From: a virus
DNA length: 64,000 nt
Direction: 5' to 3' (one strand)
IMG/VR virus record: IMGVR_UViG_3300042396_000450
Coordinates: 1 to 64,000 of that record
In this document: positions 14,729 through 46,993 of the stretch, in pieces
How positions within the stretch are numbered: the stretch's first letter is position 1
Layout of the letters: the number at the start of each line of letters is the position of its first letter
Program-made: the position numbers and the translations under genes
Notes under the pieces: model-generated
The model's input: only the letters and a program-made list of their open reading frames with translations
Told to the model about the DNA's origin: nothing
The model's database searches: none

Positions 14729-15952
14729 ATGAATAAATTAGCTTATTTTTCAGCTTCTAATTTAGAAACAATAAGTGAGTCACCTAATAAGGTAATTAAG
14801 AAAGGATTAGTCCTAATTGAAGGTACTCATGTTGACTCTAAGAAGAGAACACATACATTTAGTCCAGCTAGAATACGTGAGATAGTTAGTAACTCTAATG
14901 CGTTATTTGCTAAGACTCGCATTCCAGTATTGATGGATCATAAGAAGGAGCAATCTAGTGTTATTGGAGATGTAGAATCTCAATTTCAATGCACTACTAT
15001 TAATGAAGATAATTTTCCTGGTGCTGATGATAAGGGATTAACTGGTAAGTTAGGTATCTTTGTTAATCAAATCGCAATTAAAAGTGGTGAAGCAATACGT
15101 CAGTTAAATGAAGGATTATTAAACACACTTAGTCCTGGCATTGATGTAGTAAGTAATGCAATACGTGAAATTAGTGCAACACCTAATCCCGCCATTGCTA
15201 ATCTAAGTCTATTTAAACGTGCTGAATTTGAATCAGATGCACTTACATTTGACGACTTAGAGAACAGTGATGATATGTTAGATAAGATTCGTAATCAATA
15301 CGAAGATTTAACTAATAAGTTATGGGAACTAACTGAAACTATTCAGACTATTGATGAACAAGCACTTAACGGTCAGAGTCGTGAAGAAGTACAGTATCAA
15401 GCTATTAATGATTTCGCCACTCGTTTTCTTACGTTGATTGGATCTGGTGAGGAAGAACAAGATCCTATGATGCAGGAAGCTAATGGTGGATCTTATCCGA
15501 ACCAAGTGCAAGGTTATCAAGCTCAAGGTCAACAACAGAATTGGGGTATGCCTCCTAATGATCCTAACGCTCGTTATGCTAGTGGATTACCTATTGCAGC
15601 ATTTAGTATGGCTGAGATGGAAGCAGTTAATCGTGCTGAGTTCGGGTTGCTCCGCGAAAGCATTGATGGTGTTAAGAATTTAGGTAAACGTGTTATTAAT
15701 CGCGTTAGTAAAGATGCAGATGATGTTAAACAATCATTTGTTAATAAAGTTGCACAGCAGAAACAAGTTAAAGCTGGAAGATTACGTAAATACGGATCTG
15801 CAACTTATCAAGCTGGTAAAACTGCATTGAAGACTAAAACTGGTAAAGGTTTAGCTATCGGTACTGGTGCATTAGTTGGAACTGGATTAGCTGTTGGAGC
15901 ATACCGCGGATTAAGTGGTAAGAAACAAACTGTAATAAATAACTATAACTAA
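14729..15952 (+). CDS. Head maturation protease fused to scaffold-like tail
   Basis: Residues 65-85 (IPVLMDHKKEQSSVIGDVES, His71) and 131-160 (LNTLSPGIDV...AIREISATPNPAIANLS, Ser135) match the H...S order of Mu-I/S78-like prohead proteases. After ~190 an acidic Gln-rich region looks like scaffold. From ~276 comes GLPIAAFSMAEMEAVNRAEF, a block shared with the next gene, and the C-terminus has a Gly-rich hydrophobic helix (~372-392). Such proteases process the scaffold and capsid during maturation. Recurrent xAEF tetrapeptides (RAEF twice here, MAEF, VAEF, FAEF, IAEF elsewhere) are candidate cleavage sites, not proven. Located three genes before the scaffold and capsid, as expected. Confidence 0.82.
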   Translation: MNKLAYFSASNLETISESPNKVIKKGLVLIEGTHVDSKKRTHTFSPARIREIVSNSNALFAKTRIPVLMDHKKEQSSVIGDVESQFQCTTINEDNFPGADDKGLTGKLGIFVNQIAIKSGEAIRQLNEGLLNTLSPGIDVVSNAIREISATPNPAIANLSLFKRAEFESDALTFDDLENSDDMLDKIRNQYEDLTNKLWELTETIQTIDEQALNGQSREEVQYQAINDFATRFLTLIGSGEEEQDPMMQEANGGSYPNQVQGYQAQGQQQNWGMPPNDPNARYASGLPIAAFSMAEMEAVNRAEFGLLRESIDGVKNLGKRVINRVSKDADDVKQSFVNKVAQQKQVKAGRLRKYGSATYQAGKTALKTKTGKGLAIGTGALVGTGLAVGAYRGLSGKKQTVINNYN

Positions 15953-18650: not shown

Positions 18651-18720
18651 CTAACCGGGCGTTAATGACGTATGTTAATGATGTATGTTATCGCGCCCAC
18701 TATCCTACTTTTTTCTTACT
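18651..18720 (+). promoter_or_regulatory. Capsid-gene leader with 13-base tandem repeat and motif copy
   Basis: GTTAATGACGTAT (18661-18673) is repeated with one change at 18674-18686, followed by GTTA. The repeats are flanked by GGGCG (18657-18661) and CGCCC (18694-18698), which could pair. The dispersed motif TTTTTTCTTAC (18709-18719) ends one base before the capsid ATG. This is the only place where an exact motif copy abuts a start codon. Confidence 0.5.
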
Positions 18721-19857
18721 ATGGGTTCAGTTTCTAATTTTCTTACCGATAAGTTGCAAGCTAAAGTTGCCGAAACTCTAGTAGACGATACTATTGCTCG
18801 TCTGCGTCAGAGAACTAAACTTATTGATCAATTCATGCCTATTAAGACGTATGAGGACGATGAGTTCCTAGCATACGTAAGTGAACGTCTCACACCAGTT
18901 GCGAACTTTATTGCTGCTGGTGCTGAACCTCCAGTTATCTCTCATGGTGGTTTCCGTCGAGTAATCGGTGAACTAGCTAAGTTAGGTAATAGCTATTCAT
19001 TCGATGAAGTAACTCAGAAACAGATGCGTAAGGCAATGGAAGAAGCTGCCTATAAACGCGCTAGTGTTATGACCATGAAGTTAACTGATAACTCCGTCAT
19101 TAAGGGTACTAACGATATGCTCGTTAAGTATCTCTATGGTCACATTGAGGGGATCGTCCAATCTCATGCTGATAGACTTACTAGCATGGCTTGGCAAGTT
19201 GTTCAGACTGGTCAATTGAGTGTATCTGATGCAATTACTAAGGTTGCATGGACAATTGATTTCCGTCGTCCTGGTGCTAGTTATAACCACTTCCCTGATG
19301 CTCTTGTTGCTACTGGTAACACTGCATCTCCTAAGTTGAACAAGTGGACTGACTACGCTAATGCTGATGGTATCGCTAACTTAGAAGATGCTGTAACTAC
19401 TTATGTCAATACTAATGGTTACAAGCCTGATCTCATCGTAATGAGTAATACTGCATTGCGTGATCTTCAGAAACAAGCATCTACTATTGCTCGTGCTAGA
19501 CAATCAGTTGGATTTGCACAAGTAGGTTCTGTTAGCTTCCCAATGTTACAAGAGGTAATGGCTTCTAATAACCTACCTCCTATTAAGGATTATGATGAGT
19601 TCTATCAAGTAGATAATACCTACTCTGGTAATACTAATACTATTGATAGCTACATCAGTAATGCTCGATTCCTTAATGAGAATTGCTTCGTATTCCTCAA
19701 GGATGGAATGGGTGAGCAAGCTATTGGTACTCCTGAAGAACAGAAAGTTGTTAAAGATGGTGTATTAACAGGTACTGAATCTCCTGTAATGGTACGTGTT
19801 TATGAGAAGACAACTGTGCCTATCAACGATGTTTTGCAAGCGATTGAAACTTTTTGT
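18721..19857 (+). CDS. Major capsid protein, exon 1
   Basis: The sequence has the pattern of a Caudoviricetes major capsid protein: acidic helical N-terminus, FMPIKTYEDDEFLAYV, a core with FDEVTQKQMRKAMEEAAYKR, and a C-terminal domain with DLIVMSNTALRDLQKQ, found after the decoration gene. I prefer ATG 18721; ATG 18685 would translate through the motif and repeat. Reading on past 19857 gives five codons and a stop at 19873, inside a group I intron. Splicing 19857 to 20117 adds VLPVIYSPKNLYAQVVR, a typical hydrophobic capsid C-terminus, for a 396-residue protein. The exon end TTTTTGT pairs with GTAAAAA (19883-19889), closing with a U-G pair. Confidence 0.88.
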
Positions 19858-20116
19858 AGTCGCCTATTTAAGTAATTAAGTAGTAAAAATTCGGTGAATT
19901 GCTGGAAACTCCAGAAGTGGACAATCAGCAGCCAAGCTTAACCAGGAATGGTTTTGAAGGTTCAACGACTAGGTTTCGAGTCCAGACCGGACAGTAACAA
20001 ACCCACGAGTGCCGAACATCCCAAGTGGATGATGATATAGTCTGAACAGTAGATATAACACATGAAACTACTGATACGTAGGATAAAGAGCTTACGTGGT
20101 AACAAAATGATCAATG
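19858..20116 (+). ncRNA. Group I self-splicing intron in the capsid gene, no internal ORF
   Basis: Core elements are clear: AATCAGCAGCCAAGC (19923-19937, Q-like), GGTTCAACGACTAG (19959-19972, R-like) and GATATAGTCTGAACA (20034-20048, S-like). GACTA (19967-19971) pairs with TAGTC (20038-20042) as P7. The 5' site after 19857 is set by the P1 helix TTTTTGT/GTAAAAA with the conserved U-G pair. The 3' end at G20116 is chosen because it restores a capsid-like reading frame. Length about 259 bases, too small for an endonuclease; the nearby GIY-YIG gene is outside. The intron's presence is near certain; the 3' boundary could be off by a few bases. Confidence 0.9.
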
Positions 20117-25129: not shown

Positions 25130-25948
25130 TTAACTATTAACTAACTTACGAAAACACATATCTAACATAGGAATCATTTCAACTTCATAAGCTGATGTAT
25201 TAGGTCTATATCTACCTTTACCTAACTTAACGTTAATTTTAGTTGGATTATTACCTGTAGTTGTCTTATAAGTATCAGCAACTAAGTTAGCGAATCTGTG
25301 CATTGTAGATTTATCTGCAACAAAACCCTTACTCTTAATATAGTCACTTAAAATGACATATCCATTATGAGTTGTTAGTTCCGTAGTTACAGTTAACTCA
25401 TTTAACATTACATCAAGATTAGGAAAGTTAGTTACTGTGGCATTTCTAAGTTGTTTATATTCTGTAGTTATATTACTTAACTCATCTACTTTATCGCTTA
25501 GTAACTTAAGTGAATTAAGAATAGCTTTATTATCATCATTAATAACAGCACCAGTTAAATCCTTAACCCAATTAACGAAACCATATTGTGCCAACTTACG
25601 ATAAGTGTTGCGTGCGGTAACATTAGCAGCTTTAGATTCAAATGCGTAATACTCGATAATTAAAGTTGCTGCTGTTGATGTAATAATTTTACAAGTTCCA
25701 CCATCTTTATTTCCTTCTAGCTGTGGACTAAAAACGTTACCCAGTAAAGGTTCTAGCATTTTTAGCTGTGTACTAACACCAGTATTATCAGCTAATGGGT
25801 TTACTATTCTTTGAGACATTGTTTGTTGTGTAACTCCACATAATCGCGCCAATCCACTAATACTAACTCCAGCATCCCGTCCATCTGGAGTAATGTAAAA
25901 CTCAACATCATTAATAACAGAGGGTTGTACAATAATTTTATCTGACAT
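25130..25948 (-). CDS. Regulator paralog 1 ('SGLARLCGV' family), 272 aa
   Basis: N-terminal ~85 residues: FYITPDGRDAGVSISGLARL, CGVTQQTMSQRI, LEPLLGNVF, followed by ITSTAATLIIEYYAFES. The 'S.SGLA.LCGVT...(I/M)SQ' part looks like a helix-turn-helix. The C-terminal half is helical with EYKQLRNATVT, shared with 40470-41324. A third copy starts at 63711. Similar proteins are frequent in cyanobacteria and their phages, with no established function that I can name; antirepressor or DNA-binding regulator is the best guess. Its promoter overlaps a 10-bp inverted repeat (25978-26010), consistent with autoregulation. Confidence 0.75.
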   Translation of the reverse strand: MSDKIIVQPSVINDVEFYITPDGRDAGVSISGLARLCGVTQQTMSQRIVNPLADNTGVSTQLKMLEPLLGNVFSPQLEGNKDGGTCKIITSTAATLIIEYYAFESKAANVTARNTYRKLAQYGFVNWVKDLTGAVINDDNKAILNSLKLLSDKVDELSNITTEYKQLRNATVTNFPNLDVMLNELTVTTELTTHNGYVILSDYIKSKGFVADKSTMHRFANLVADTYKTTTGNNPTKINVKLGKGRYRPNTSAYEVEMIPMLDMCFRKLVNS

Positions 25949-32038: not shown

Positions 32039-32283
32039 ATTTAGCGGCATTAATTGAGATATATGGTGGTGTTGAGAATGCACTACTACTAGTTAACTCA
32101 CTAGATGATCTGGAGATACATGATCTGATTAATCAGACAACTGAGTTACGTAAAGATCCATCAGTTCGAGATGCTGAGGAAGTAGAAAGAGATTGGAATG
32201 ATTATGTTATTAATAATGATCTAGATCAGGAGATAATCGTAGACGGTAAGAAAACAAGTATAAATCAATTAATGGGGTTCTAA
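31568..32283 (+). CDS. Tail assembly chaperone, frameshifted (GT-like) product
   Basis: A -1 shift at A_AAA_AAA (31996-32002) enters a frame that is open to the TAA at 32281-32283 and has no suitable start of its own. The fusion would be about 238 residues, with an acidic extension (YAIDLAALIEIYGGVENALL and onwards to NQLMGF). This G/GT arrangement is the standard strategy of long-tailed phages: the extension binds the tube or tape measure. Its stop overlaps the tape measure ATG by one base, as expected. Confidence 0.85.
31996..32002 (+). promoter_or_regulatory. -1 ribosomal frameshift slippery site A_AAA_AAA
   Basis: The zero-frame phase is ATA AAA AAA ATG, so the heptamer A AAA AAA is correctly phased for a tandem -1 slip of two lysyl-tRNAs. 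Downstream -1 frame is open for 93 codons and ends exactly at the tape measure gene. Confidence 0.85.
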
Positions 32284-35200
32284 TGGATCAATATAATCAA
32301 GACGTTAACATTAACTTCCAAGGTGAAGATAATATAAGTGGAGTTATTGATAAAGTTAATGAGAAAGTTGGTTCATTACAATTCAAGATAATGGCACTTA
32401 ACATAGGGTTAGGTGCATTTGGTAAACAGTTATTTACTAACTCTGATAACTTAGCTAAGTTTACTAAGGTTCTTGGTACAACTGATGTTCTATTAAATAA
32501 GACATTTGCAGTAACTGGAGTAGTTAAAGTATTCTCAATACTAGGAACTGGTATTAATGATGCGAAAGCTAACTTAGATAGATTTAATGATGGATTGAAA
32601 GCAATGCAAGCTAGTGGACTTGATATTGGCATTATTACGCAATTCACGCAATTACAAGATGCAGTATTAGGAAGTCGTAATGCTCTAGATTCATTTAGTT
32701 TAACTGCATTAACTACATTTAATAGATTCAATAAAGTTAAATCAGAAGTAGCTACATTGTTTCCTGAGAATGATCCATTTATTAAGAATCTATCTACTAG
32801 TATTCAGAAACTAGTTAATGAGGATCTTAAAAATGCAGTAACTAGTATTGACGCATTAAAAGCTAGTTATGAAGCTGCGTCGTCTGGTTTTACTGAAGCT
32901 GCTGATAACCAAGCTGTAATGACAGCAGGACTTAAATTAGCTAAAGCTGGTGGTGCTGATACTGGAGCAACTATGAAGGTACTTGCTCAAACTATTAGTG
33001 CTTATAATCTGAGTGCTGGTGATGCAACTAAAGTTAGTGCAGTTCTAAATCAAACTGTACAATTAGGTGTAACTACAATACCAGAATTAAGTAATGGTTT
33101 TGCTCAAGCAGCAGTAACAGCTAACGCAGCTAAGATTAAATTGCAAGAGTTAGGTGCTGCTGTAGCAACATTAACATTAAAAGGTTTTGACACAAACAGT
33201 GCATTAACAGGTATTGAATCATTATCGCGCGTAATTATCAGCAAAACTCCTCAAGCTGCTGCTGCATTGCGAGAATTACGTGATGAAGGTGGTAAACCAA
33301 TTAGATTTGACGTTAGTGAAATAAAAGCTAAAGGTCTTACTAAAGCAATACAGGATTTAAATATAGCAGCTAAGGGTAACGTTGAAGTAATTCGTGAAAT
33401 AATTGCAGATTCTACTTCTTATAATACTTTCTTAGCATTAGCAGCTAATAACTCTGAGAAATTGGGTGAATTTACTCAGAAGATGTTTGATGTTAGTAAA
33501 ACAGGTGAAGTTGCACGTAAAGCATTAGATAGTGTATTTGGAATTAAATTAAATAACCAAGCTGAAACATTCGATGCAATTGTAAATAGAATAACTGAAC
33601 AATTCATACAATTTGGTGAACAGTTAGCTCCATTCTTTGACACTGGAGTTAAAGCATTAGAAACGTTCACTAAAACATTATCTGGAATTAGTCCAGAAAT
33701 GAAGAAGACTATAGCATCAATATTGCTAGGTCAATTAGCATTTAATAAAGTAACTGATACTATTGGTATTTTAGTTGGAACTATAACTAAAGCATTCTTA
33801 GCATATCAAGGTTTGCGAGTAACCTTGATGTTCATGAATGGAACTATAGGTGAACAGTTCAACTTAATTAATGGATTAATTAAAACTAAAGCAGGATTAG
33901 TTCCCGTAATTAAACAGTTAATGGGATTTGATCAATCACATCTATTAATACAAACTAAATTAAATACAGTTACTAAAACTAGGGGTGAATTGCTTAAAGC
34001 TGTATTTACTGGAGAAGGTGATAGATTAACTAACCTTAAACAATTAGTTGGTTTAGAGAAACAATATGAACTTAATGTAGGTGAGTTAAACAAAACATTA
34101 GATGGTAGAAATAAGATACTTGATAATCAAGTAGATAAAGTTAATGGAGTTATTAAAGCAACGGCTAAAGTAAAGGATGCTGAAGCTACAGCTAACTCTA
34201 TTAAACAAGAAGGTCTACAACTATTAGATGAGTTAGAGATATCTAATGCTAAACAACTTGATATTAAAACTAAATTAATTAAGGTAGAAGATGATCTTAA
34301 ATTAGGTGGTTCTAATACTGTTGCATTACAGAAGGAATCAATACTACTTAATAATCAATTAACTAATTCACTTGATGAACAACAACAACTACAAGAGTTA
34401 ATTAACGTAAATAACGTTAAGTATGGTGATGCAACTAAAGCATTAGTAACATCAGAACTCGCACTTGATTCAACTAGACTTGCAGCTAAGGAAAGACTTA
34501 GTGTTATAGTTACTAAACAATTAGCTATTGAACAACTGCAAGCTAACTTAACTATCTATAATGAGAAAGCAGTTAAGTTATCTACTGCTGCTGAGTTATT
34601 AAGAACTAAAGCTAAAGTTGATTCTGCCAACGCTTCTATTTTCTTACAACGTGCAGAGTTTCTACAAACTAAATCAACTGAATATGCAACGTTAGCAACT
34701 ACAACTCAAACTGCTATTATCGCTGGTAATGCAGAAGTTAGAAAACTTAAAATAGCAGCATCATTAGCAGAACAAGTTGCTGATGGTAATTTAATTAAAG
34801 TACAAGTAGGTTTAGGTACTAGTTACATTGCTAATAGTTTACTAACGAGAATACTGTTCTTCGATATTACTAATTTAGCTGGAGCTACTAAAGCAGTTAG
34901 TGTTGCAGGAACTGGATTTGCAGGTGTAATTGGTGGTTTATGGACAACATCAATTGGTATAGCTAGTGCAACATTAAGATTCCTAGATGCTCAACTTACA
35001 ACACTGTATCTTAAATTAGCTCCATTTACATTAGCGTTAGCTCCCATAGCAGTAGCATTAGGATTAATTGGTACTATTGGTTATGAAGCATTCTTCGGAA
35101 TGACAGGTCAATTAAATAACTTAAATAAAGAATTAAAAGAATTAGATAAACAAGGACAACTTAATTTAATACGTGAATTAGATAAATTACAAATTAATAA

Positions 35201-38200
35201 ACAACTTAATGAATCAGAACAGAAGAGATTACAACTATTGAAAGAATCAGTAAGTGTAGCTAAAGAAGCTGATGAAAGTTCTAAAGGTGTTATGGATCGT
35301 GTGGGCGATTTTAATAATACTATAGAAAAGTTTAATGCAACTAAAATTATATTTAATGGTATTATCAGTGGATTTGGTAAAGTTATTAATTTATTTAGAG
35401 CAGATGCTGTAGTAAAAGTTCTTGATGATATAGATGTTGCATCATTAAAAACTCGTGATTCTATTAATGAATTAACTAAATCAACTAAGAAACTTCAATT
35501 GGGATTTACTGGAATTGAAGAAGTAGATAAATTAATTAAGCAAGGTAAAATACTTAGCGCAACAGACATAGATAAAATTGCTAATGAAGCTAAAGTTGCA
35601 ACTAAGAGAACTGAATTAGAAATATCAATTAATGAAAATAAAATTAAGGCAGTTAGTGAACAACTTAAAGATTTCGATAAGTTAAGTATTGAAGAACGTA
35701 AACAAGCTAGTGACCACGAAAAACAATTAGATACACATCGTACAATATTAGAAACTGCTAATGATAAATTGAAAGATGTATTAAGTAAGAAAAAAGAGAT
35801 AGATAAGGCGCGAATAGAATATCAAACTCAACAGAACATATTACTTAAGCGCGTATTAGATAATAATCTGGAAATAGAAAAAGGTAGCACTACTATAGAA
35901 GGTGATCAAGGAGCTAACGCACTTCAAACTAGAATGAAGAAGGGACTTAGATTGGCGCAAACTGATCTAGAACAATATCGTCGTCAAGTTAAAGCAACAT
36001 TAGATGGAACTGGTGAATATCTTGATGCTAATAATAAGAAGGTTAAAATTGACGTAACTGATATGACTGATTACGTTAATAAATTTGACACTAATGTTAA
36101 TGGAGTTATTAGTAGTATTGATCAGTTATATCAAGTTAATGGTACTAGTGCAACTGAAGCAGCTAAAACACTTAAAGCTGTATTAGATACTAATAAACAA
36201 GAGATGAATATAACTGATTATATTAATGGAATTAACCAAGCTATAGGTTACATGAGAGATGGAAGTAAAGTAACAATAGACTTACTTAACTTAGAAGGTG
36301 AAACTCGACGGGCTATGTTAGATAGTGGAGTTACATCAACTAGAGAAACAAATGCTGCGATACGTAAGTTAAATGCAGCTAAGTTAGAAGAGGAAATTAA
36401 TAATCAGAAACAACTAATTGAATTTACTAAAGCTACATCTGGTGCAGATCAGAAGAAGTTAGATGCTGCTAAGTTAAAGTTACTTGAACAACAACTAGCT
36501 GCACAACAACGTGATAATCTTAAAGCTGAATTAGATGAAAGATTTAAACAACAACAAGTAGCATTAGATAGAGAACAAGAGTTAATTAAGTTAGATAAAG
36601 CTAAACGTCTTATTAGTGAAGAAGAATATAACAATAAGATAGCTGAGGATACTAAACGTAACTTAGATTTAAAACGTAAACAACTACTACAGGAACTAGA
36701 GTTAAATAAAAATGATTTAGAGAAAACTAAGTCTATTAATAATCAATTACTAGGAATTGATGTACAACAACAAGAGTTAATAACATCTAATTTAGAACGT
36801 GCAATTAATGTACGATCTAAAAAACGTGAATTAGAGTTAACTAGAGAACAAGCTTTAGTTGTTTTGAATAGAAGTAAGTTCTTAACTACTGAAGAACAAT
36901 CTATCAGAGATATAGATGTGGTAAGAAAAAAGGAGATATTAAATAAACAACTATCTCTTAATGAACAACTTAAGTTAGTTGAACATGATAAAACTAAACA
37001 GACGGAAATACAGAATCAATTACTTAATCTACAGTTAGATTATCAGAAGATAATAACTGATAATTTAGAACGTGAGTTTACTAAACGTAGTAAACTCATT
37101 GAAAATGCCGCGAATAGAACTAAGTTAGTTTACCGTGAATTAACTAACACCATTGATAATAATGTAGCATCACTTAACGAAGAGAATAAGATAATAGATA
37201 GTCGTAATAAGTTAACATCATCTACACTTGAAAATGAAAGTGCGCGATTAACTAACTCACTTAAAGTAACTAACGATATTGAGAAACGTGCTGCTATTGA
37301 AACTAAGATAGCTCAACTGCGCGAATCTAATCGTGTAGTTACAGATGCTACTGAACAACGTAGTTTAATTAATCAACAGAAGTTAATTGAATTATCATTG
37401 CAGAAACAACAAATAGAGTTAGATAGTCGGCGCAATGATGCTAATAATAACAGTAAGTTAATACAACTTGAGTTAGAGAAAGCTATTAAACAGAAGAGAA
37501 ATAAAGAAGATATAGATGCAATTAAAATTAGATTAGATGCTAATAAACAAGAACAATTAGCTATCACTAAACAGAATGAGTTACTAGATGTAACTAAACG
37601 TAATCAAAGTGAGATTAATAGTAATGCAAGTAGAGAACTAGAGATTAGACAACGTATAGGTAGAGAAGGTGGATTGCTCGATCTAGAGATAACTAAACAA
37701 AATGAGAAAATAGCTAGGTATGAGAAGATTGCACAACTGGCAAATCTAGAAGCTACAATTGCAGAAACTAATGCTAATAAAATGCAATTAGCTGGTGATC
37801 TACAAATTAAAAATTACCAAATGCGATTAGACCTTCTTAATAAACAAGCTGAATTAGAACAACAGCATCAAGATAATACACAACGTATGTTTAAGATGGC
37901 TGAGGGATTAGCAGTAAGTGATTATCAGAAACGTAAGTTAGCAGAACAAGCTGCTAAACAAGAGTTACTTAACCTTAATAAGAAACATCAAATAGAACGT
38001 GATATATTAGCTATTCAAATTAAGATGAATGAACTAGCTCTAATTAAAAGTGAGTTAGATCAAAAGAGTGCCGAAAAGAAATTAGCAGCAGAACTTAAAG
38101 TACAAGAAGCTGAAACAGCTAAAGTATTAAAGAGTAGAACTGCAACTGATGAAGAGAAGAAAGGATCATTAGCAACATTAGATGCTAAGAAGTTTGCATA

Positions 38201-38708
38201 TCAAGCTAAGTTAGAAGAACGTCCTATATTAGAACAGCAAGCAGAATTAAATAGATATACTAATACTATTCAAAAGGCTGCATTAGATAATAAACAACGT
38301 AATGAAACTCAAGATAAGACCGTTGCAGTTGCTAAATCTACATTTACTACTGCTGATGATCGTGCCATTTATCGGGCATTAATGAATAATCTAAGAGGAG
38401 ATAGACGTGAGTTAGATAACACTCGTATTAATTTCAGTCAGGAGAAGTTATCCAACTTATTTTCTTACCCTAATAGTAATGTCAACTTAGAAAGACCTAA
38501 CTTTGATTCAAATAGTGGTAAGTCTAAATCAAGTAATAGTAAGTTAAATAAAGATGTAGTTATTAACTTTAATCCAACTACTAATATTGAAGTTAAAGGT
38601 AATGCTGATGTTAAGGAGTTCTCTAAACAACTTAATAGTGAAAGTGATAAGTGGATTAAGGGACTTCATGAAACACTTCGTAAAGTTAACACTGAATTAG
38701 GTAACTAA
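32283..38708 (+). CDS. Tail tape measure protein, 2141 aa
   Basis: The largest gene. Residues ~200-330 contain the TP901-type core (LKLAKAGGADTGATMKVLAQ, ISAYNLSAGDATKVSAVLNQ, VTTIPELSNGFAQAAVTANA). Two hydrophobic regions lie near ~475-515 and ~860-950. From ~1000 to the end it is an almost continuous Lys/Glu/Gln/Leu coiled coil. By the usual ~1.5 angstrom per residue, tail length would be near 320 nm (rule-of-thumb estimate). The start overlaps the chaperone stop. Two motif copies (35785, 36921) and a short variant (38460) lie inside. Confidence 0.95.
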   Translation: MDQYNQDVNINFQGEDNISGVIDKVNEKVGSLQFKIMALNIGLGAFGKQLFTNSDNLAKFTKVLGTTDVLLNKTFAVTGVVKVFSILGTGINDAKANLDRFNDGLKAMQASGLDIGIITQFTQLQDAVLGSRNALDSFSLTALTTFNRFNKVKSEVATLFPENDPFIKNLSTSIQKLVNEDLKNAVTSIDALKASYEAASSGFTEAADNQAVMTAGLKLAKAGGADTGATMKVLAQTISAYNLSAGDATKVSAVLNQTVQLGVTTIPELSNGFAQAAVTANAAKIKLQELGAAVATLTLKGFDTNSALTGIESLSRVIISKTPQAAAALRELRDEGGKPIRFDVSEIKAKGLTKAIQDLNIAAKGNVEVIREIIADSTSYNTFLALAANNSEKLGEFTQKMFDVSKTGEVARKALDSVFGIKLNNQAETFDAIVNRITEQFIQFGEQLAPFFDTGVKALETFTKTLSGISPEMKKTIASILLGQLAFNKVTDTIGILVGTITKAFLAYQGLRVTLMFMNGTIGEQFNLINGLIKTKAGLVPVIKQLMGFDQSHLLIQTKLNTVTKTRGELLKAVFTGEGDRLTNLKQLVGLEKQYELNVGELNKTLDGRNKILDNQVDKVNGVIKATAKVKDAEATANSIKQEGLQLLDELEISNAKQLDIKTKLIKVEDDLKLGGSNTVALQKESILLNNQLTNSLDEQQQLQELINVNNVKYGDATKALVTSELALDSTRLAAKERLSVIVTKQLAIEQLQANLTIYNEKAVKLSTAAELLRTKAKVDSANASIFLQRAEFLQTKSTEYATLATTTQTAIIAGNAEVRKLKIAASLAEQVADGNLIKVQVGLGTSYIANSLLTRILFFDITNLAGATKAVSVAGTGFAGVIGGLWTTSIGIASATLRFLDAQLTTLYLKLAPFTLALAPIAVALGLIGTIGYEAFFGMTGQLNNLNKELKELDKQGQLNLIRELDKLQINKQLNESEQKRLQLLKESVSVAKEADESSKGVMDRVGDFNNTIEKFNATKIIFNGIISGFGKVINLFRADAVVKVLDDIDVASLKTRDSINELTKSTKKLQLGFTGIEEVDKLIKQGKILSATDIDKIANEAKVATKRTELEISINENKIKAVSEQLKDFDKLSIEERKQASDHEKQLDTHRTILETANDKLKDVLSKKKEIDKARIEYQTQQNILLKRVLDNNLEIEKGSTTIEGDQGANALQTRMKKGLRLAQTDLEQYRRQVKATLDGTGEYLDANNKKVKIDVTDMTDYVNKFDTNVNGVISSIDQLYQVNGTSATEAAKTLKAVLDTNKQEMNITDYINGINQAIGYMRDGSKVTIDLLNLEGETRRAMLDSGVTSTRETNAAIRKLNAAKLEEEINNQKQLIEFTKATSGADQKKLDAAKLKLLEQQLAAQQRDNLKAELDERFKQQQVALDREQELIKLDKAKRLISEEEYNNKIAEDTKRNLDLKRKQLLQELELNKNDLEKTKSINNQLLGIDVQQQELITSNLERAINVRSKKRELELTREQALVVLNRSKFLTTEEQSIRDIDVVRKKEILNKQLSLNEQLKLVEHDKTKQTEIQNQLLNLQLDYQKIITDNLEREFTKRSKLIENAANRTKLVYRELTNTIDNNVASLNEENKIIDSRNKLTSSTLENESARLTNSLKVTNDIEKRAAIETKIAQLRESNRVVTDATEQRSLINQQKLIELSLQKQQIELDSRRNDANNNSKLIQLELEKAIKQKRNKEDIDAIKIRLDANKQEQLAITKQNELLDVTKRNQSEINSNASRELEIRQRIGREGGLLDLEITKQNEKIARYEKIAQLANLEATIAETNANKMQLAGDLQIKNYQMRLDLLNKQAELEQQHQDNTQRMFKMAEGLAVSDYQKRKLAEQAAKQELLNLNKKHQIERDILAIQIKMNELALIKSELDQKSAEKKLAAELKVQEAETAKVLKSRTATDEEKKGSLATLDAKKFAYQAKLEERPILEQQAELNRYTNTIQKAALDNKQRNETQDKTVAVAKSTFTTADDRAIYRALMNNLRGDRRELDNTRINFSQEKLSNLFSYPNSNVNLERPNFDSNSGKSKSSNSKLNKDVVINFNPTTNIEVKGNADVKEFSKQLNSESDKWIKGLHETLRKVNTELGN

Positions 38709-40277: not shown

Positions 40278-40351
40278 CCAAACCTGGGCTAATGGTAAGC
40301 CGCCTCTTTTGGGAAGAGGACATCATGAAAGTTCAATTCTTTCGGTTTGGA
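40278..40351 (+). tRNA. tRNA-Pro (anticodon UGG)
   Basis: A full cloverleaf folds by eye: acceptor CCAAACC/GGTTTGG, D stem GGCT/AGCC with loop AATGGTA, anticodon stem CCTCT/AGAGG with loop TTTGGGA (anticodon TGG, G37), and T stem GAAAG/CTTTC with loop TTCAATT. Discriminator base A at 40351; CCA is not encoded. UGG reads CCA and CCT, the main proline codons in this AT-rich genome, so it probably supplements host tRNA supply. Followed by a terminator. Confidence 0.92.
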
Positions 40352-40469: not shown

Positions 40470-41324
40470 ATGAGTGAGATAACTTACGCACAATCTTATA
40501 TTGGTGAAGATGATATTGAATTGTATGTAACTAACGATGGTAAAGTTACAGGAGTTAGTCTATCAGGACTTGCTAAATTATGTGGTGTAACTAGAAAAGC
40601 AATAAGTCAAGTTACTAACAGCTTAACAGCACCCGGAACGAATACATACCCGAAATCGCTAGAACCCTTAGCTGGTAAGGTTTTTAACCCGGAAGTAACT
40701 GGAGAACGAGGTGCAAAAATAGTAATGGAAGATGTTGCAATTAGAATAGTTGAGTATTACGCTTATGAATCTAGAGTTAAAACAGATGTAGCTAAAACTA
40801 ATTTTCGTTTGTTAGCACAGAAAGGTTTAAATGCTTATATTAAAGAACTTACACCAACTGATAATGTAACATCAGTTAACTTAAATGACATTCAGAATAC
40901 ATTAACTCAACTTCTATTAAAGGTAGATGAGAATAATAAACAACTACTTGAGAATCAACAGATAGTAGTTGAATATAAACAACTTAGAAATACAACAGTT
41001 ACTATTATTCCAGGAGTAGATAAATTATTAAACGATTATTTAGAATTAGATAGTGATTTAACATTAACATCTAGTGATAGAATACCTTTAACTAAATGGT
41101 TAGAAGTTGAGAAAGGTTGTACATTAGATAGAAAAACACTACATAAGTTAGCTCACTTAGTTAGTGGTGCTTATAAGTCAACCACAAATAAAGAACCAGT
41201 TAGAGGTACATTTGTTAAACGTATTGTTAATGGTAAGAAAAAAGTACAAGCTAATACTTGTTTATATTCGTCAGATGAATTTCCAATATTAGAGATGGCA
41301 TTTAATAATTTAATGGGGGTTTAA
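40470..41324 (+). CDS. Regulator paralog 2 ('SGLAKLCGV' family), 284 aa
   Basis: Same order as 25130-25948: LYVTNDGKVTGVSLSGLAKL, CGVTRKAISQV, LEPLAGKVFNPEV, AIRIVEYYAYES, then RLLAQKGLNAYIKEL and EYKQLRNTTVT in a helical C-terminal half. The two differ most in the helix after CGVT and at the C-terminus. Putative DNA-binding or antirepressor-like regulator. It has a strong promoter and its own terminator upstream, so it is an independent unit. Contains a motif copy at 41233. Confidence 0.78.
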   Translation: MSEITYAQSYIGEDDIELYVTNDGKVTGVSLSGLAKLCGVTRKAISQVTNSLTAPGTNTYPKSLEPLAGKVFNPEVTGERGAKIVMEDVAIRIVEYYAYESRVKTDVAKTNFRLLAQKGLNAYIKELTPTDNVTSVNLNDIQNTLTQLLLKVDENNKQLLENQQIVVEYKQLRNTTVTIIPGVDKLLNDYLELDSDLTLTSSDRIPLTKWLEVEKGCTLDRKTLHKLAHLVSGAYKSTTNKEPVRGTFVKRIVNGKKKVQANTCLYSSDEFPILEMAFNNLMGV

Positions 41325-41327
41325 GTT

Positions 41328-41714
41328 ATGAATAATCAATTAGTTAAGTTAAGTAAAAAAAATAATATAGTAGCGGCATTTATTGAACATTACAAATTAG
41401 GATTAATAGATTACAATGTAATGCTAAAACAACTAACGTTAACTTTATGGGAAGTTACAAACACATTAATTGATGAATTTAAGTTACGTAAAGTAATTGA
41501 TCCAATTCAATTAGTTAAATTAGATGATGTTCAAATTGAGTTAGAATACCTCTACTTAATTAACTACATTCAACCTCATTTAGAATGTTTAGCTATCTAT
41601 ATGAAATCACATGAGGTAGAAGTAAACACAATTAAAAGTTATATTATTAATAACGATAACTTAAATGAAGTTAATATTGATGATATAACTATGTTAAATA
41701 ACTTACTATTTTAA
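41328..41714 (+). CDS. Hypothetical protein, 128 aa
   Basis: Three bases after regulator 2, same transcript. All-helical, with alternating Leu/Ile and acidic residues; no motif recognised. Could act with the regulator. Confidence 0.62.
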   Translation: MNNQLVKLSKKNNIVAAFIEHYKLGLIDYNVMLKQLTLTLWEVTNTLIDEFKLRKVIDPIQLVKLDDVQIELEYLYLINYIQPHLECLAIYMKSHEVEVNTIKSYIINNDNLNEVNIDDITMLNNLLF

Positions 41715-41854: not shown

Positions 41855-41861
41855 ATAAAAT

Positions 41862-41897
41862 AAATCCACTAGCAATTAAGTTAGTGGATTTATTAGT
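41862..41897. terminator. Terminator between convergent operons
   Basis: AAATCCACTA (41862-41871) pairs with TAGTGGATTT (41882-41891), a perfect 10-bp stem with a 10-base loop and T-rich tails on both strands. It serves the plus-strand regulator 2 operon and the minus-strand Dps/MazG/ClpP operon. Confidence 0.75.
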
Positions 41898-41900
41898 ATG

Positions 41901-41972
41901 TTATTTATCTCGTCTGTTAAGCTTCGCCATTAACAATAGATAAACTAATCTAGATATGCCATTATATCTCAT
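41901..41972 (-). CDS. Micro-ORF, 23 aa
   Basis: ATGA overlap with the 59-aa gene; reads MRYNGISRLVYLLLMAKLNR and ends RRDK. Hydrophobic centre. It ends 4 bases before the terminator stem. Plausible last gene of the minus-strand operon, but too short to be sure. Confidence 0.3.
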   Translation of the reverse strand: MRYNGISRLVYLLLMAKLNRRDK

Positions 41973-42148
41973 ACGTAACTAACTCTAACTATCTCACAGT
42001 TAACATATCTACTTTTAATTACATTACCAGCTAACTGATGATTACACTTCTCACGATTAACAGTTACATTAACTAACTCATTAGCACCAATACACCAATG
42101 TCCATCTGATTTAAGATAGTTAAATTTAACATCATATTGTTCAATCAT
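41969..42148 (-). CDS. Small protein, 59 aa
   Basis: Starts inside the Dps stop (ATGA overlap). MIEQYDVKFNYLKSDGHWCI begins it; two other Cys follow (REKCNHQ and NCEIV). Looks like a small beta barrel with a possible metal site (C, H, C, C). Its tight coupling to dps suggests co-expression. Confidence 0.55.
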   Translation of the reverse strand: MIEQYDVKFNYLKSDGHWCIGANELVNVTVNREKCNHQLAGNVIKSRYVNCEIVRVSYV

Positions 42149-42684
42149 TGCAAGTGCTTCTCTATTAAATAAACAAACTTAATTAACGTAGCTGCTAATT
42201 CTAATAATGTATTAGCATTAACTCTATCACCATTATCATCTAAATCATTACTACAATCAGTAACTTCTTTAATAACGTAAGAAAATAGAGTAGCTAGTTT
42301 AGTGAGACATTCATTACTATCACTACAACAACTGATAATATCAACGTTAGATAACTCAGTTGTATTACAACTAATAGTAGCATTACCTCCAAATGCTACT
42401 ATAACTTCAGCAATAACATCAACATAACTATCTAACTCACTTTGAATATCATCTAACATACTATGAACTGCTTTAAAGTTCATACCTTTAATGTTCCAAT
42501 GACTTATTCTAGTTAAGTTACGTAAATCAAACAGTAGATTAAGTAACTCACTTAACTTAGTTACAGAATGGGTGCGGATCTCAGGACTAATTAATAAACT
42601 AGTTACATTAGGAGTATTAGTAACTGTAGTTGCTGCAAATGTAGATAATCTTCTGTTAGCTAATGCTTCTTTAATCTTATTCAT
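42145..42684 (-). CDS. dps: Dps-like ferritin (DNA-protection/iron-oxidising protein)
   Basis: All five ferroxidase ligands of Dps are present with correct spacing: His62 (SHWNIKG), His74 (KAVHSM), Asp78, Asp89 and Glu93 (VDVIAEV), giving a di-iron centre between two subunits. Length 179, slightly longer than typical owing to an N-terminal extension MNKIKEALANRRLSTFAATT whose 'RLSTFA' echoes the virion leader (SLSTFAR). Dps oxidises Fe(II) with H2O2 and shields DNA. In a phage it could protect phage or host DNA during infection, or be packaged. It overlaps mazG by 4 bases. Confidence 0.85.
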   Translation of the reverse strand: MNKIKEALANRRLSTFAATTVTNTPNVTSLLISPEIRTHSVTKLSELLNLLFDLRNLTRISHWNIKGMNFKAVHSMLDDIQSELDSYVDVIAEVIVAFGGNATISCNTTELSNVDIISCCSDSNECLTKLATLFSYVIKEVTDCSNDLDDNGDRVNANTLLELAATLIKFVYLIEKHLQ

Positions 42685-43160
42685 CTATTGTCACCACTAC
42701 CTTTTAATGTGTTGTTTACATCACGTTTAGTTAACTTAGCTACGTTAATCTCAATTAACTCTTCTGTAGTTAAATTAAGTTGTTTTAATTCATTTATTAT
42801 AAAGTCATGATAACTAAGCAGTGTAAATACACAATCAGTTGTATTATTATCACCTCTATATAGTCGCTTTAAAAATCCCGCTAACTGCAATGATAATTCA
42901 CTAACTGATAATAAATTATCAAACTCAAATTTTAAAGCTGATTTTAATGGAGGAAATCCTACTTTATTTAAAGCTAATACTAAATAAGCTAGTACGTCAC
43001 CTAACTCTTTTTTCTTACTTAACTCATCATCTGCTAAATTATATTCATTAAGTTCTTCTATTAATCCTGCAATATAAACAGTCAATTTGCTTCGCTCATC
43101 TGCAATTGCATACTTATTACTAAATTCAATTAACCAAGTTGAGTATTCATTTAAGTTCAT
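42681..43160 (-). CDS. MazG-like nucleotide pyrophosphohydrolase
   Basis: The all-alpha NTP-PPase signature is clear: GLIEELNEYN (Glu35, Glu36, Glu39) and KKELGDVLAYL (Glu52, Asp55), the EExxE...ExxD metal site. Residues ~85-159 are an extra helical domain. Phage MazG proteins hydrolyse dNTPs or alarmone-like nucleotides; here it sits with ClpP and Dps, a stress-response-like set. 4-base overlaps on both sides show one operon. Confidence 0.82.
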   Translation of the reverse strand: MNLNEYSTWLIEFSNKYAIADERSKLTVYIAGLIEELNEYNLADDELSKKKELGDVLAYLVLALNKVGFPPLKSALKFEFDNLLSVSELSLQLAGFLKRLYRGDNNTTDCVFTLLSYHDFIINELKQLNLTTEELIEINVAKLTKRDVNNTLKGSGDNR

Positions 43161-43663
43161 ATAATTTCACTAATAAGTCCTAATTCTAAAGCTTGTTGTG
43201 CAGTTAAATATGTATCTTTCAACATCATATTGCTAGTTAACTTAGTGTCTTTATAACACTCCATACAATATGACTCTAATTTATCCCACCAATCAATTAC
43301 ATTCTTAGTTCCAGTTAAATCATGCTTAATACTACCTCTTAATTCATGTACCATAAATGTTGTATAACTACTACACTTACTAGTAGCTGCACATAATAAT
43401 AATGTACCACCACTAGCTACATAACCTTCTGCAATAATAGTTATATTAAGTGAACTACGTTTAATAACTTCATACATCTTAAGTGAACTAGTTACACATC
43501 CACCATAACAATCTAGATAAATAGTAATTGATTTATCAGCAGATGATTTTAAATTAGATTCTAATTCACGCAATAGATAAACAAACTTAGTTGATGATAA
43601 GTTATTAATGTTTCCAGTAAAATATAAATCAGTACCTTTATAGAAGCATTCAAATTCGGACAT
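43157..43663 (-). CDS. ClpP-like serine protease
   Basis: Compact 168-residue ClpP fold with the full triad: Ser84 in GYVASGGTLL, His106 in FMVHEL and Asp150 in LKDTYLTAQQALELGLI. YLDCYGGCV (~49-57) is the strand before the handle region. Could be a ClpP subunit or a head-type protease. The head cluster has its own protease, and the gene is with mazG and dps, so I favour interference with or supplementation of host Clp proteolysis, a hypothesis. Confidence 0.85.
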   Translation of the reverse strand: MSEFECFYKGTDLYFTGNINNLSSTKFVYLLRELESNLKSSADKSITIYLDCYGGCVTSSLKMYEVIKRSSLNITIIAEGYVASGGTLLLCAATSKCSSYTTFMVHELRGSIKHDLTGTKNVIDWWDKLESYCMECYKDTKLTSNMMLKDTYLTAQQALELGLISEII

Positions 43664-43739
43664 TATCTACCTCATTTATTAACTTAGTTAACTTATCTTC
43701 AATAATAACTACACTATCATCATCATCTACACATCTCAT
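43650..43739 (-). CDS. Possible micro-ORF, 29 aa
   Basis: Minus-strand ATG at 43739 gives MRCVDDDDSVVIIEDKLTKL and on to NEVDNVRI, overlapping the start of the ClpP gene by 14 bases. Acidic. The frame fits the gap between clpP and the divergent tail gene, but a second overlapping micro-ORF (43723-43782) also exists and neither is decisive. Confidence 0.25.
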   Translation of the reverse strand: MRCVDDDDSVVIIEDKLTKLINEVDNVRI

Positions 43740-43826
43740 CTACACTAAACCATTCTAATTCTATTACTTGTTTCTTACTCATACTTGTTACACTTGTAAT
43801 TGACGGAGTTATACACTTTAATTAAC

Positions 43827-44312
43827 ATGACTTGCGAATTATCAACAACTAGTTTAATCAAGAATCTATATATAGAATGTCAAACACCTATATTAGATCA
43901 ATTCAGCATAACTAATAGAGCTACATTTAATAGTGTTAGTTATTTAGTTATTCCAGTTATATCATCTAATTATACTAGATTATTAACCGAACGATCAGAA
44001 TTAGTAGATACATTAAATACCGCATTTATTAGACCTAAACCTGTGCGAGTTGGATTTACTGTACGTATAGTTAACAATGATTGGAATGTACATCGTTGTC
44101 TAGAGTTTCTAGCTATTAGTAGTGTTACTAGTAGTTACAATAACTATATTCCAGTAACTGTAATTGATTATGTGCGACCTGAAGTAACTGATGCTACTGC
44201 TACAGTTCGTAAAGGTATGCTAACTTTATCTGCTGGTAATGGTAGAACTGGTAACTATACTGAAGATTATGAGATTACATTTAATGAAATAACTAAACGA
44301 GTGATAATGTAA
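43827..44312 (+). CDS. Putative distal tail protein, 161 aa
   Basis: I take the ATG at 43827 rather than TTG 43800. Beta-rich, with paired strands (YLVIPVISSNYTRLL, VGFTVRIVNNDWNVHRCLEF) and a small C-terminal barrel. Placed directly before the large hub gene, as distal tail proteins are. Identity by position. Confidence 0.58.
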   Translation: MTCELSTTSLIKNLYIECQTPILDQFSITNRATFNSVSYLVIPVISSNYTRLLTERSELVDTLNTAFIRPKPVRVGFTVRIVNNDWNVHRCLEFLAISSVTSSYNNYIPVTVIDYVRPEVTDATATVRKGMLTLSAGNGRTGNYTEDYEITFNEITKRVIM

Positions 44313-44329
44313 AGGACAAAGTCAACATT

Positions 44330-46993
44330 ATGTTTATTCTTACTAATACAGATTTACCGGAATTAGCAACTACATACTATAACAGTTGTATTAATAGCAT
44401 TCTTAAACAATCAACTAGTTTAACTAATAGTGGTTTAATATCGAAGCTATTTAGTAATGTAACTACAACTATTACAACTGTAACTGCGAATAATAATGGA
44501 ACATACGAATTAACTACAGATACATTACCTGATTTAATAACAACTACAAATGGAACATTCACATTAGCTAAGGATATTAATAACCCTGTTAATGGTGAGT
44601 TTATTTACATTAATAATAAAGTAGTTATTTATAGTGCAGTTAATTTAATTAATGTAACTGTATTTAGTTCACCAATAGTTAATTCACTTAGAATACCTAC
44701 TATAAATGGATTAGCAGGATTGCCAGTTCTATCTAACATAACTATTAGTGAATCATTTCAAGATCATCCAACTGCATCTATTAGTTTAGTTACTAGCGTT
44801 AATTACATTGCTCAAGTTAGAAGTCTATTTAGAGTAAGTAGTTTATTTAATCTCAGTAAATATCAGTTTGTAGTTAATAGTTATAATGAAGAGTTATCTA
44901 GTGATGATGATATATTAAGAGTTAATATTAACCTGCGCGGAAAATGGGATAACTATGTTAATTATCCAATAGCACTTAATAATACAACTGATATTAACAA
45001 TAACTTTCAAGATCCAGAATGTTCAATTGATGCAACTGAAATAGCTAAAACTAAGAAGTACGTAACTATTAATGAAGTTGCTGCTAAAAGTGGAGCTAGG
45101 ATAACTGGCATTGAAGGAACTGTAATTGTAGATAAATCAGATAATAATGCAACTGTAACATTAGGTAGTTTAATTAATGAATACCTTGATATTAATTCTG
45201 CATTTGTTGATTACAATAAACCTGATGTAATAGTATGTAGAAAACTTAATGCTGTTACTAGTTGGACATATAATAGTGATAAGATATTAAGTAACTTTAA
45301 TACTACTATTAATCGTAATTTACCATTACCAATTAACGGTAGTTACGGATCAATCAATAACAACATCAGTTACACATCGTTAGTTCCAACAACTATAACT
45401 AATCGTGTAACATCACTAACTGCTGAAAATACATTTATCATTCCATATCCAACTATCTACAATTACACAACTCCTGATAACTTTAATGACGCTGGTAATA
45501 TAGTTATTGAGGAAGCAACTAAGGATATACAATCTAAGTTTGAAAATCGTAAACCAGTTAAACGTACTTATATTAAAGGTGATTTAGATGCAGCAACTTG
45601 TCCATCTAACATAACTAGACTTAAAACACTTGATCTTAATCATGATAAGAGTGGTGTAACTAAAACTATCATAGATATAACTGAAGAAGATAATAATCCA
45701 ATAAGTGAAGTTACGCGACGTTATGGATTTGCATATACAGCATGGGATATAACATTAATTAGTGGTGAAAGTATTGAATTAGATAGTGCTGCTACTAATT
45801 GGTGGACACTAATTGAAGAAACTAAAACTACATATAACTATGATAATAAAACTGGATATCTACTTGGTTATGATTTAACTGGACGTAAACTAATTCGCGC
45901 CAATATAGAAGGTGATGATAGATATACTCAAGAATATCAACTTGCAGTTAACGATGGTGAAACTCCATCTAGTGCGGATACTGCAACTTATAACACTTAT
46001 CAATTTAAGTTTGTTCGTGTTACAGGAGCTAAGAGATATGAGTTAGCTCAACATAGAGATTACTATCGTCAATTTGGACAACAATCTAAGTTTATTAAAC
46101 AATGCAATAAAGATGGTTCTAGTAGTTATGTAGCAGATCCAACTTATATTGAACCTATGTTTGTAATAGCTGAAGCAGAACAATATAGTTGTTTCTTAAG
46201 TGTTGATAATCCACTTAATTTAGAACGCGAATCAGGAGATCCAGTTGAACCACCATTAACTAGTGGTCAGGAGACATATAATAGAACATTCCTTAAAATA
46301 CTATCATCTAAGAATAGTGCTAAACAACAGAACTTCCGTAGTGACTATCAAGGTGAAGACACTTATATCTCATATACAAGTAACTTTACATCACAAGATC
46401 CTGGATTTCGTGCAGTTACTGAAGAAACAAGTAGTTCAACTAATACAGGAATACCACCTGTACATACTCGTAAACCACCTAAATATGAATTAATTGAACC
46501 TAAGAAAGAAGAAGATAAAGTTACTAATAATTATAGATATGTTTATTGGACAACCCCTTATACTGGTGGTTATCCTAGAACTGGTAGTTATAACTTCGAT
46601 AAAGCTAAGAATATAAATGAAGTAACTGCTGCTGTTAATAATCAACTTAGAATAGATGATATTAGAAATACATTAACATCAACTATGACTATTCCATATA
46701 ACGATAGTATTACAACTGGAGATAAAGTAACTGTTATATTTAATGGTTTACAATGTCGAAGACGAGTAGTTAGTATAACTCATTCTATAGAACAAGAGGT
46801 TACTAATGTTGGTATTGAAACTACAGCAGTAACTAATTTAACTATGGGTATTGATAGAGATATTAGTGTTAGTAGTAAAAAAGAAAAGATAGTTAAACCC
46901 GTTAAACCAACACCTAAAACCCCATCTGATGTTTATGCTGAAGGATTTAAATTAGGTTCATTATTACCAAATACACTAGGACGTGGATCATGA
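44330..46993 (+). CDS. Tail hub/baseplate-type protein, 887 aa
   Basis: Large beta-rich protein with the layout of gp27/Tal-like hub proteins; the N-terminus MFILTNTDLPELATTY loosely resembles the leader pattern. SPIVNSLRIPTINGLAGLPVLSN, ISESFQDHPTASIS (~140-155) is like the hub entry strand, and the C-terminal TIPYNDSITTGDKVTVIFNG, RRRVVSITHSI is the hub 'second barrel' often seen in such proteins. Positioned between distal tail and fibre genes. Confidence 0.68.
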   Translation: MFILTNTDLPELATTYYNSCINSILKQSTSLTNSGLISKLFSNVTTTITTVTANNNGTYELTTDTLPDLITTTNGTFTLAKDINNPVNGEFIYINNKVVIYSAVNLINVTVFSSPIVNSLRIPTINGLAGLPVLSNITISESFQDHPTASISLVTSVNYIAQVRSLFRVSSLFNLSKYQFVVNSYNEELSSDDDILRVNINLRGKWDNYVNYPIALNNTTDINNNFQDPECSIDATEIAKTKKYVTINEVAAKSGARITGIEGTVIVDKSDNNATVTLGSLINEYLDINSAFVDYNKPDVIVCRKLNAVTSWTYNSDKILSNFNTTINRNLPLPINGSYGSINNNISYTSLVPTTITNRVTSLTAENTFIIPYPTIYNYTTPDNFNDAGNIVIEEATKDIQSKFENRKPVKRTYIKGDLDAATCPSNITRLKTLDLNHDKSGVTKTIIDITEEDNNPISEVTRRYGFAYTAWDITLISGESIELDSAATNWWTLIEETKTTYNYDNKTGYLLGYDLTGRKLIRANIEGDDRYTQEYQLAVNDGETPSSADTATYNTYQFKFVRVTGAKRYELAQHRDYYRQFGQQSKFIKQCNKDGSSSYVADPTYIEPMFVIAEAEQYSCFLSVDNPLNLERESGDPVEPPLTSGQETYNRTFLKILSSKNSAKQQNFRSDYQGEDTYISYTSNFTSQDPGFRAVTEETSSSTNTGIPPVHTRKPPKYELIEPKKEEDKVTNNYRYVYWTTPYTGGYPRTGSYNFDKAKNINEVTAAVNNQLRIDDIRNTLTSTMTIPYNDSITTGDKVTVIFNGLQCRRRVVSITHSIEQEVTNVGIETTAVTNLTMGIDRDISVSSKKEKIVKPVKPTPKTPSDVYAEGFKLGSLLPNTLGRGS

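Follow-up and report, generated by a model that had tools for sequence, protein, structure and literature searches.

Proteins related to the bacterial mini-ferritin Dps, the pyrophosphohydrolase MazG and the protease ClpP have each been described in phages. Mass spectrometry of purified virions of Proteus phage Privateer detected its Dps (QIN94861; PMC7881722). This protein carries all five ferroxidase ligands and a basic N-terminal tail (+3), and its gene lies among nucleotide-metabolism genes with no adjacent ClpP or MazG annotated. The freshwater cyanophage S-SRM01 (MW015081) likewise encodes a Dps, annotated as a 'DNA starvation/stationary phase protection protein', whose gene has porin and 'histone H1' genes as neighbours; ClpP or MazG neighbours are not annotated there. 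MazG-like proteins are known from cyanophages of the S-PM2 type (PMC6850273, PMC2297514). According to PMC6850273, a cyanophage MazG neither binds nor hydrolyses (p)ppGpp and prefers dGTP and dCTP. Concerning ClpP, a review holds that the patchily distributed ClpP proteins of jumbo phages are likely deployed against the host (PMC7824862). ClpP domains outside the head module are also encoded by Mycobacterium phage Tourach (gp90) and Bacillus phage vB_BcoS-136 (clpP1), where they are found beside RNA ligase and replication genes. A literature search for phage, Dps, MazG and ClpP together returned only an unrelated paper.

The locus described here joins all three. It lies in a window of 64,000 nucleotides, bases 1-64000 of IMG/VR record IMGVR_UViG_3300042396_000450 (111,623 bases), with a G+C content of 0.325. 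The major capsid protein (MCP; 18685-19875) is homologous to those of the Pseudanabaena phages Pam2 and PA-SR01 (25.7% identity, E 8e-31), and several other structural genes of the window have homologues in PA-SR01, with partial synteny. The phage is siphovirus-like and, by these comparisons, a distant relative of the freshwater cyanophages PA-SR01 and Pam2. A cyanobacterial host is likely because of the MCP match and the structural-gene homologues in PA-SR01, a link that rests on 26% MCP identity and partial synteny. A domain search of PA-SR01 gave no match for ferritin or ClpP domains.

How is the locus organised? Read along the minus strand, it begins with a ClpP-fold serine protease (43157-43663, 168 aa), followed by a MazG-like pyrophosphohydrolase (42681-43160, 159 aa), a Dps mini-ferritin (42145-42684, 179 aa) and a small ORF (41969-42148, 59 aa) that matches nothing in Pfam or NCBIfam. 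Successive ORFs overlap by four bases, with the coding-strand sequence ATGA at every junction. The initial annotation had described three overlapping genes at 42145-43663; these coordinates are right, and the genes are co-directional and translationally coupled, with the 59-aa ORF, absent from that description, adding a fourth coupled gene. At the downstream end, between convergent genes, stands a terminator-like hairpin of 15 pairs (41859-41894; one such hairpin found against 0.3 expected), while promoter-like sites show no excess (16 versus 16.0 in shuffles). Upstream of clpP lies the 19-codon remnant of a further minus-strand gene (43723-43782), which is intact in some relatives. The cassette is surrounded by plus-strand tail genes, with flanking plus-strand genes at 41328-41714 on one side and 43800-46993 on the other. 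It sits between the tape measure gene (32283-38708) and 44330-46993. Its G+C content (0.277-0.294) is slightly under the gene mean of 0.330 (sd 0.038). The sole tRNA gene found in the record, tRNA-Pro(TGG), is located at 40278-40351, near the variable region.

Opposite strand, terminator and variability among relatives are the marks of a moron, or accessory operon. We consider it probable that clpP-like, mazG-like, dps and the 59-aa ORF form such an operon within the tail region, which would give the phage a conditional benefit and would not be essential to it.

The variability became apparent from related contigs. When each of the three proteins was used to scan IMG/VR, all relatives recovered were near-identical. 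Across the six contigs that span dps, the gene is intact and identical in four and truncated by a deletion in two (L006 and L007). The deleted stretch of 526 bases (41974-42499) removes most of dps together with the 59-aa ORF, and ends Dps right after H62, leaving a 62-residue stub. Both contigs share the same deletion junction and come from different metagenomes, which makes an assembly error unlikely. Dps is thus dispensable in nature, as seen in these two contigs. The gene upstream of clpP encodes 90 aa in L006 and L005, and L005 carries one extra gene. MazG alleles diverge between near-identical flanks: there are at least two, of 157 or 159 aa, with up to 60 nucleotide differences. The cassette behaves like an accessory operon whose genes are frequently exchanged. 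L006 and L007 carry a different 276-aa gene in place of the stretch containing 40470-41714, beside the dps deletion, a replacement that marks the neighbourhood as an exchange hotspot. Two BstA-like genes were also noted in the window, at 40470-41324 (matching PHROG 6287) and at 25130-25948. Another side observation concerns the end of the record, where a fragment with the FGE-sulfatase fold is found at 111259-111507 on the minus strand (L064:9259-9507); domains of this type are often varied by diversity-generating retroelements.

Such gains and losses, the truncated dps in two of six relatives and the truncated upstream gene of the window itself would also fit a decaying cassette, carried as baggage and of no current benefit. 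We regard this as quite improbable, since the active-site residues of ClpP and Dps and the MazG motif are intact, and every one of the seven ClpP copies of sufficient length, that of the window among them, is complete. With a dN/dS of about 0.10-0.25 in the pairs where it was computable (few changes), ClpP is by this estimate under purifying selection; the corresponding values for MazG are 0.04-0.59. Selection on dps is not measurable because its five intact copies, again counting the window's, are identical.

The ClpP-like protein has clear matches to Pfam CLP_protease (E 1.5e-17) and PHROG 94 (E 1.6e-20). Its residues S84, H106 and D150 align with those of solved ClpPs that we take to be the catalytic triad, and on that assignment the full triad reported by the initial annotation is present. 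Residue 12 pairs with residues 28-32 of the solved ClpPs, and the N-terminal axial-loop segment is missing; in ClpP, the N-terminal stretch forms the axial loops. The predicted structure reaches a pLDDT of 53.3. Models of ATP-dependent ClpP score 39 to 51 bits, below their NCBIfam cut-offs (TIGR00493, 39 of 308.6 bits), and the Clp ATPase domain PF07724 was found in none of the four phage records searched, with 14 of 14 controls positive. A host-encoded Clp ATPase is a possible partner.

The best NCBIfam score belongs to NF045542, 'head maturation protease, ClpP-related', and the top PHROG match is to head maturation proteases as well. In Bacteroides phage BKO1-TP4, moreover, a homologue of the ClpP-like protein adjoins terminase and portal genes. 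Could the ClpP-like protein therefore be the head maturation protease of this phage, and the cassette a displaced head module? We hold this to be highly improbable. The NF045542 score of 66.9 bits misses the cut-off of 120, the gene stands among tail genes, and with 168 aa the protein lacks the extension that brings its BKO1-TP4 homologue to about 345 aa. A separate head protease candidate is encoded ahead of the MCP (14729-15952; PHROG 976, E 3.3e-6); a Pfam search with this protein matched nothing, and it is homologous to a PA-SR01 gene annotated 'Mu-like prophage I protein'. The relatives in Tourach and vB_BcoS-136, which differ from the window's protein in neighbourhood and share 25.7-25.9% identity, also sit outside head modules. 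On account of the separate candidate and of these phage relatives, the ClpP-like enzyme of the accessory operon is probably a free phage protease rather than one that works with a phage Clp ATPase.

The second gene product is probably MazG-like by its sequence. It matches PHROG 229 (E 6.8e-6) and retains the EExxE-12-ExxD metal motif (EExxE at residues 35-39, ExxD at 52-55), which is invariant in four aligned alleles. The pyrophosphohydrolase named by the initial annotation is upheld to that extent; on the other side, the Pfam score is sub-threshold (E 0.012, 16.2 bits against a cut-off of 22), for which reason only the label 'MazG-like' is used, and NCBIfam gave no match. The predicted structure is all-helical, but with a pLDDT of 39.9. 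A tblastn search of 50,697 phage records at E 0.01 detected no relative of the protein, which sets it apart from the MazG of S-PM2-type phages. Elsewhere in the record, at 69631-69912 on the minus strand (L062:5631-5912), a further 93-aa protein is MazG-like (Pfam E 0.014). A role as a (p)ppGpp enzyme was rejected as stated, a cyanophage MazG being without that activity (PMC6850273), although the divergence of the window's protein makes this conclusion less than certain. The enzyme would probably trim (d)NTP pools instead. Together with the head-maturation-type score of ClpP and the absence of a Clp ATPase in the records searched, the specificity of that cyanophage MazG weakens the proposal that all three proteins act in host stress responses.

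The third protein matches Pfam Ferritin with 51.4 bits (E 1.5e-13, cut-off 24.5) over residues 43-179, the whole core, and PHROG 3636 with E 3.4e-19. The Dps signature HWNxxGxxFxxxVH occurs once (42463-42501, minus strand), with zero matches expected in 100 shuffles. Aligned with four solved bacterial Dps segments, the five ferroxidase ligands H62, H74, D78, D89 and E93 are invariant, which bears out the complete set proposed initially: the ferroxidase centre is intact. Among NCBIfam models, proteobacterial Dps (PRK09448) scores 83.6 bits versus 12.3 for cyanobacterial DpsA, under the PRK09448 equivalog cut-off of 114 bits; judged by this score, the protein is a divergent Dps and not a PRK09448 equivalog. 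It resembles proteobacterial Dps, including the Brucella and Agrobacterium structures 3ge4 and 1o9r, in its full-length domain, ligands, HWN motif and long basic tail, and differs in its identity of about 35% and its sub-cut-off score. Taken together, it is a bacterial-type Dps with an apparently working centre. Such a protein would assemble into the usual 12-subunit cage, which would oxidise Fe(II) using peroxide and retain the iron, while the basic N-terminal tail would bind DNA. Dps would thereby shield replicating phage DNA from Fenton damage inside the infected cell.

The N-terminal region deserves a closer look. It comprises 61 residues before the first ferroxidase histidine and has a net charge of +3. 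In 78 other viral Dps measured, the same stretch spans 6-51 residues (median 26) with a median charge of 0, so the tail is longer here than in all of them; in 71 bacterial Dps the medians are 48 residues and +3. Within this region, the initial annotation had seen an 'RLSTFA' resembling the virion leader. That leader is shared by 12 ORFs of the structural region (starts at 9634, 11355, 12441, 15958, 16587, 21607, 22409, 23115, 23842, 24189, 29217 and 38752), with a basic KDKKKRK-type stretch as its core. It opens with a short hydrophobic start and FAR; then come basic residues resembling GSKDKKKRK and a hydrophobic segment rich in Gly. Against an HMM built from the 12 window ORFs, whose training members score 43-69 bits, Dps obtains 0.3 bits (E 8.7), which places it 34th among the 115 ORFs listed (128 scored); RLSTFA was rejected as a virion leader. 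The resemblance is of a common kind: 24% of ORFs share a 5-mer with some other ORF within the first 30 residues, and one leader protein also contains LSTFA. By length and charge, the region is better read as a basic tail.

Packaging of Dps is nevertheless possible on grounds other than RLSTFA. In this alternative, Dps would be produced at a late stage and built into the particle, either to condense or protect the genome there or to reach the next host along with the DNA. The strongest precedent is Privateer, whose Dps was found in purified virions despite the position of its gene in a nucleotide-metabolism cluster; a phage Dps can thus be virion-associated with its gene far from the head genes (PMC7881722). 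The window's Dps shares the five ligands and basic tail of the Privateer protein. Here dps is outside the head module, surrounded by tail genes of the other strand; the leader argument fails, and two of six relatives live without an intact Dps. We therefore find packaging in this phage doubtful, while giving it some credence.

How widespread is Dps among viruses? The initial annotation held that few phages carry it. A degenerate DNA pattern encoding HWNxxGxxFxxx[L/I/V/M/F]H, checked first on the window and on other loci, was run against the IMG/VR viral_contigs and hit at least 119 stretches; all 80 loci among the matches listed encode Dps by an HMM built in this analysis. Viral Dps is fairly common, contrary to that statement. 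Among 50,697 records of named phages, 14 carry Dps with the window's protein as query and 23 with a phage-type query, counts that include some short or unannotated Staphylococcus and Salmonella records, possibly host DNA. The ligands were compared in 84 viral Dps, made up of the 80 loci among the matches listed, contigs L078 and L079 and two Streptomyces phages. Ligands 1, 2, 4 and 5 are H, H, D and E in all 84 (80 of them among the matches listed), and the third is D in only eight; the other 76 lack it (same set, 80 among the matches listed). The residues at this position include G in 46, E and Q in 12 each, and A, N and S in two each of the 84 (80 among the matches listed). G, Q or E at the third ligand in most viral Dps suggests an altered metal site. 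The Dps of S-SRM01 is of this short-tailed phage type, with G at the third ligand, and thus differs from that of the window.

In a tree of 105 rows, a large viral group is separate from bacterial-type Dps, and a bacterial source of this group is possible. The window's Dps joins Pseudomonadota weakly (93/77), with a long branch of 1.8 and odd composition; the NCBIfam scores agree with this placement. The bacterial rows of the tree come only from a scan with patterns made from Pseudomonadota Dps, so that a Pseudomonadota origin of the protein is tentative.

Some viral dps genes do lie close to head genes. In L078, dps is found between a head-tail adaptor gene and scaffold/protease-like and MCP genes, in L079 between a portal/protease-family gene and the MCP, and in L269 and L242 directly behind a portal gene. 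Dps is part of a fusion protein of 371-754 aa in eight of the 80 loci among the matches listed, one of these ORFs being open at the 3' end. The longest, a 754-aa ORF (L227:303-2567, minus strand), joins Ferritin (315-454, 8.5e-12) to a Peptidase_S78 prohead protease (526-677, 4.4e-44), and L209 has a portal/protease-family stretch fused to Dps. The L227 fusion is preceded by a kinase/phosphatase-like stretch. Portal PHROG 776 is matched by 10 of the 105 genes directly adjoining viral dps, counted among the matches listed. These arrangements raise a broader reading, in which phages have widely and repeatedly recruited Dps as a virion protein built into heads, and the long-tailed, ferroxidase-competent Dps of the window, with its head-protease-like ClpP, is the bacterial-type version. 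We judge it unlikely. Head-gene neighbours of viral dps are a minority overall: among 121 larger neighbours, Pfam matches in the best 25 families comprise four to terminase, two to S78, two to capsid and one to portal. In the isolates Privateer, LAh_8, Kenrey and S-SRM01, dps is placed among nucleotide-metabolism, tRNA or accessory genes.

The locus draws attention to functions in iron handling and DNA protection that are rarely discussed for phages. Viral Dps comes in two kinds: a bacterial type with the full ferroxidase site, as in the accessory operon described here, and a large group with an altered third ligand. The natural dps deletion strains offer a ready control for the role of Dps. 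If the head reading were true, a cage-forming Dps, whether free, portal-adjacent or fused to a prohead protease, would protect or arrange the genome inside the head. If Dps is packaged, as the mass spectrometry of Privateer suggests for that phage, phage particles would contain a protector of the bacterial nucleoid.
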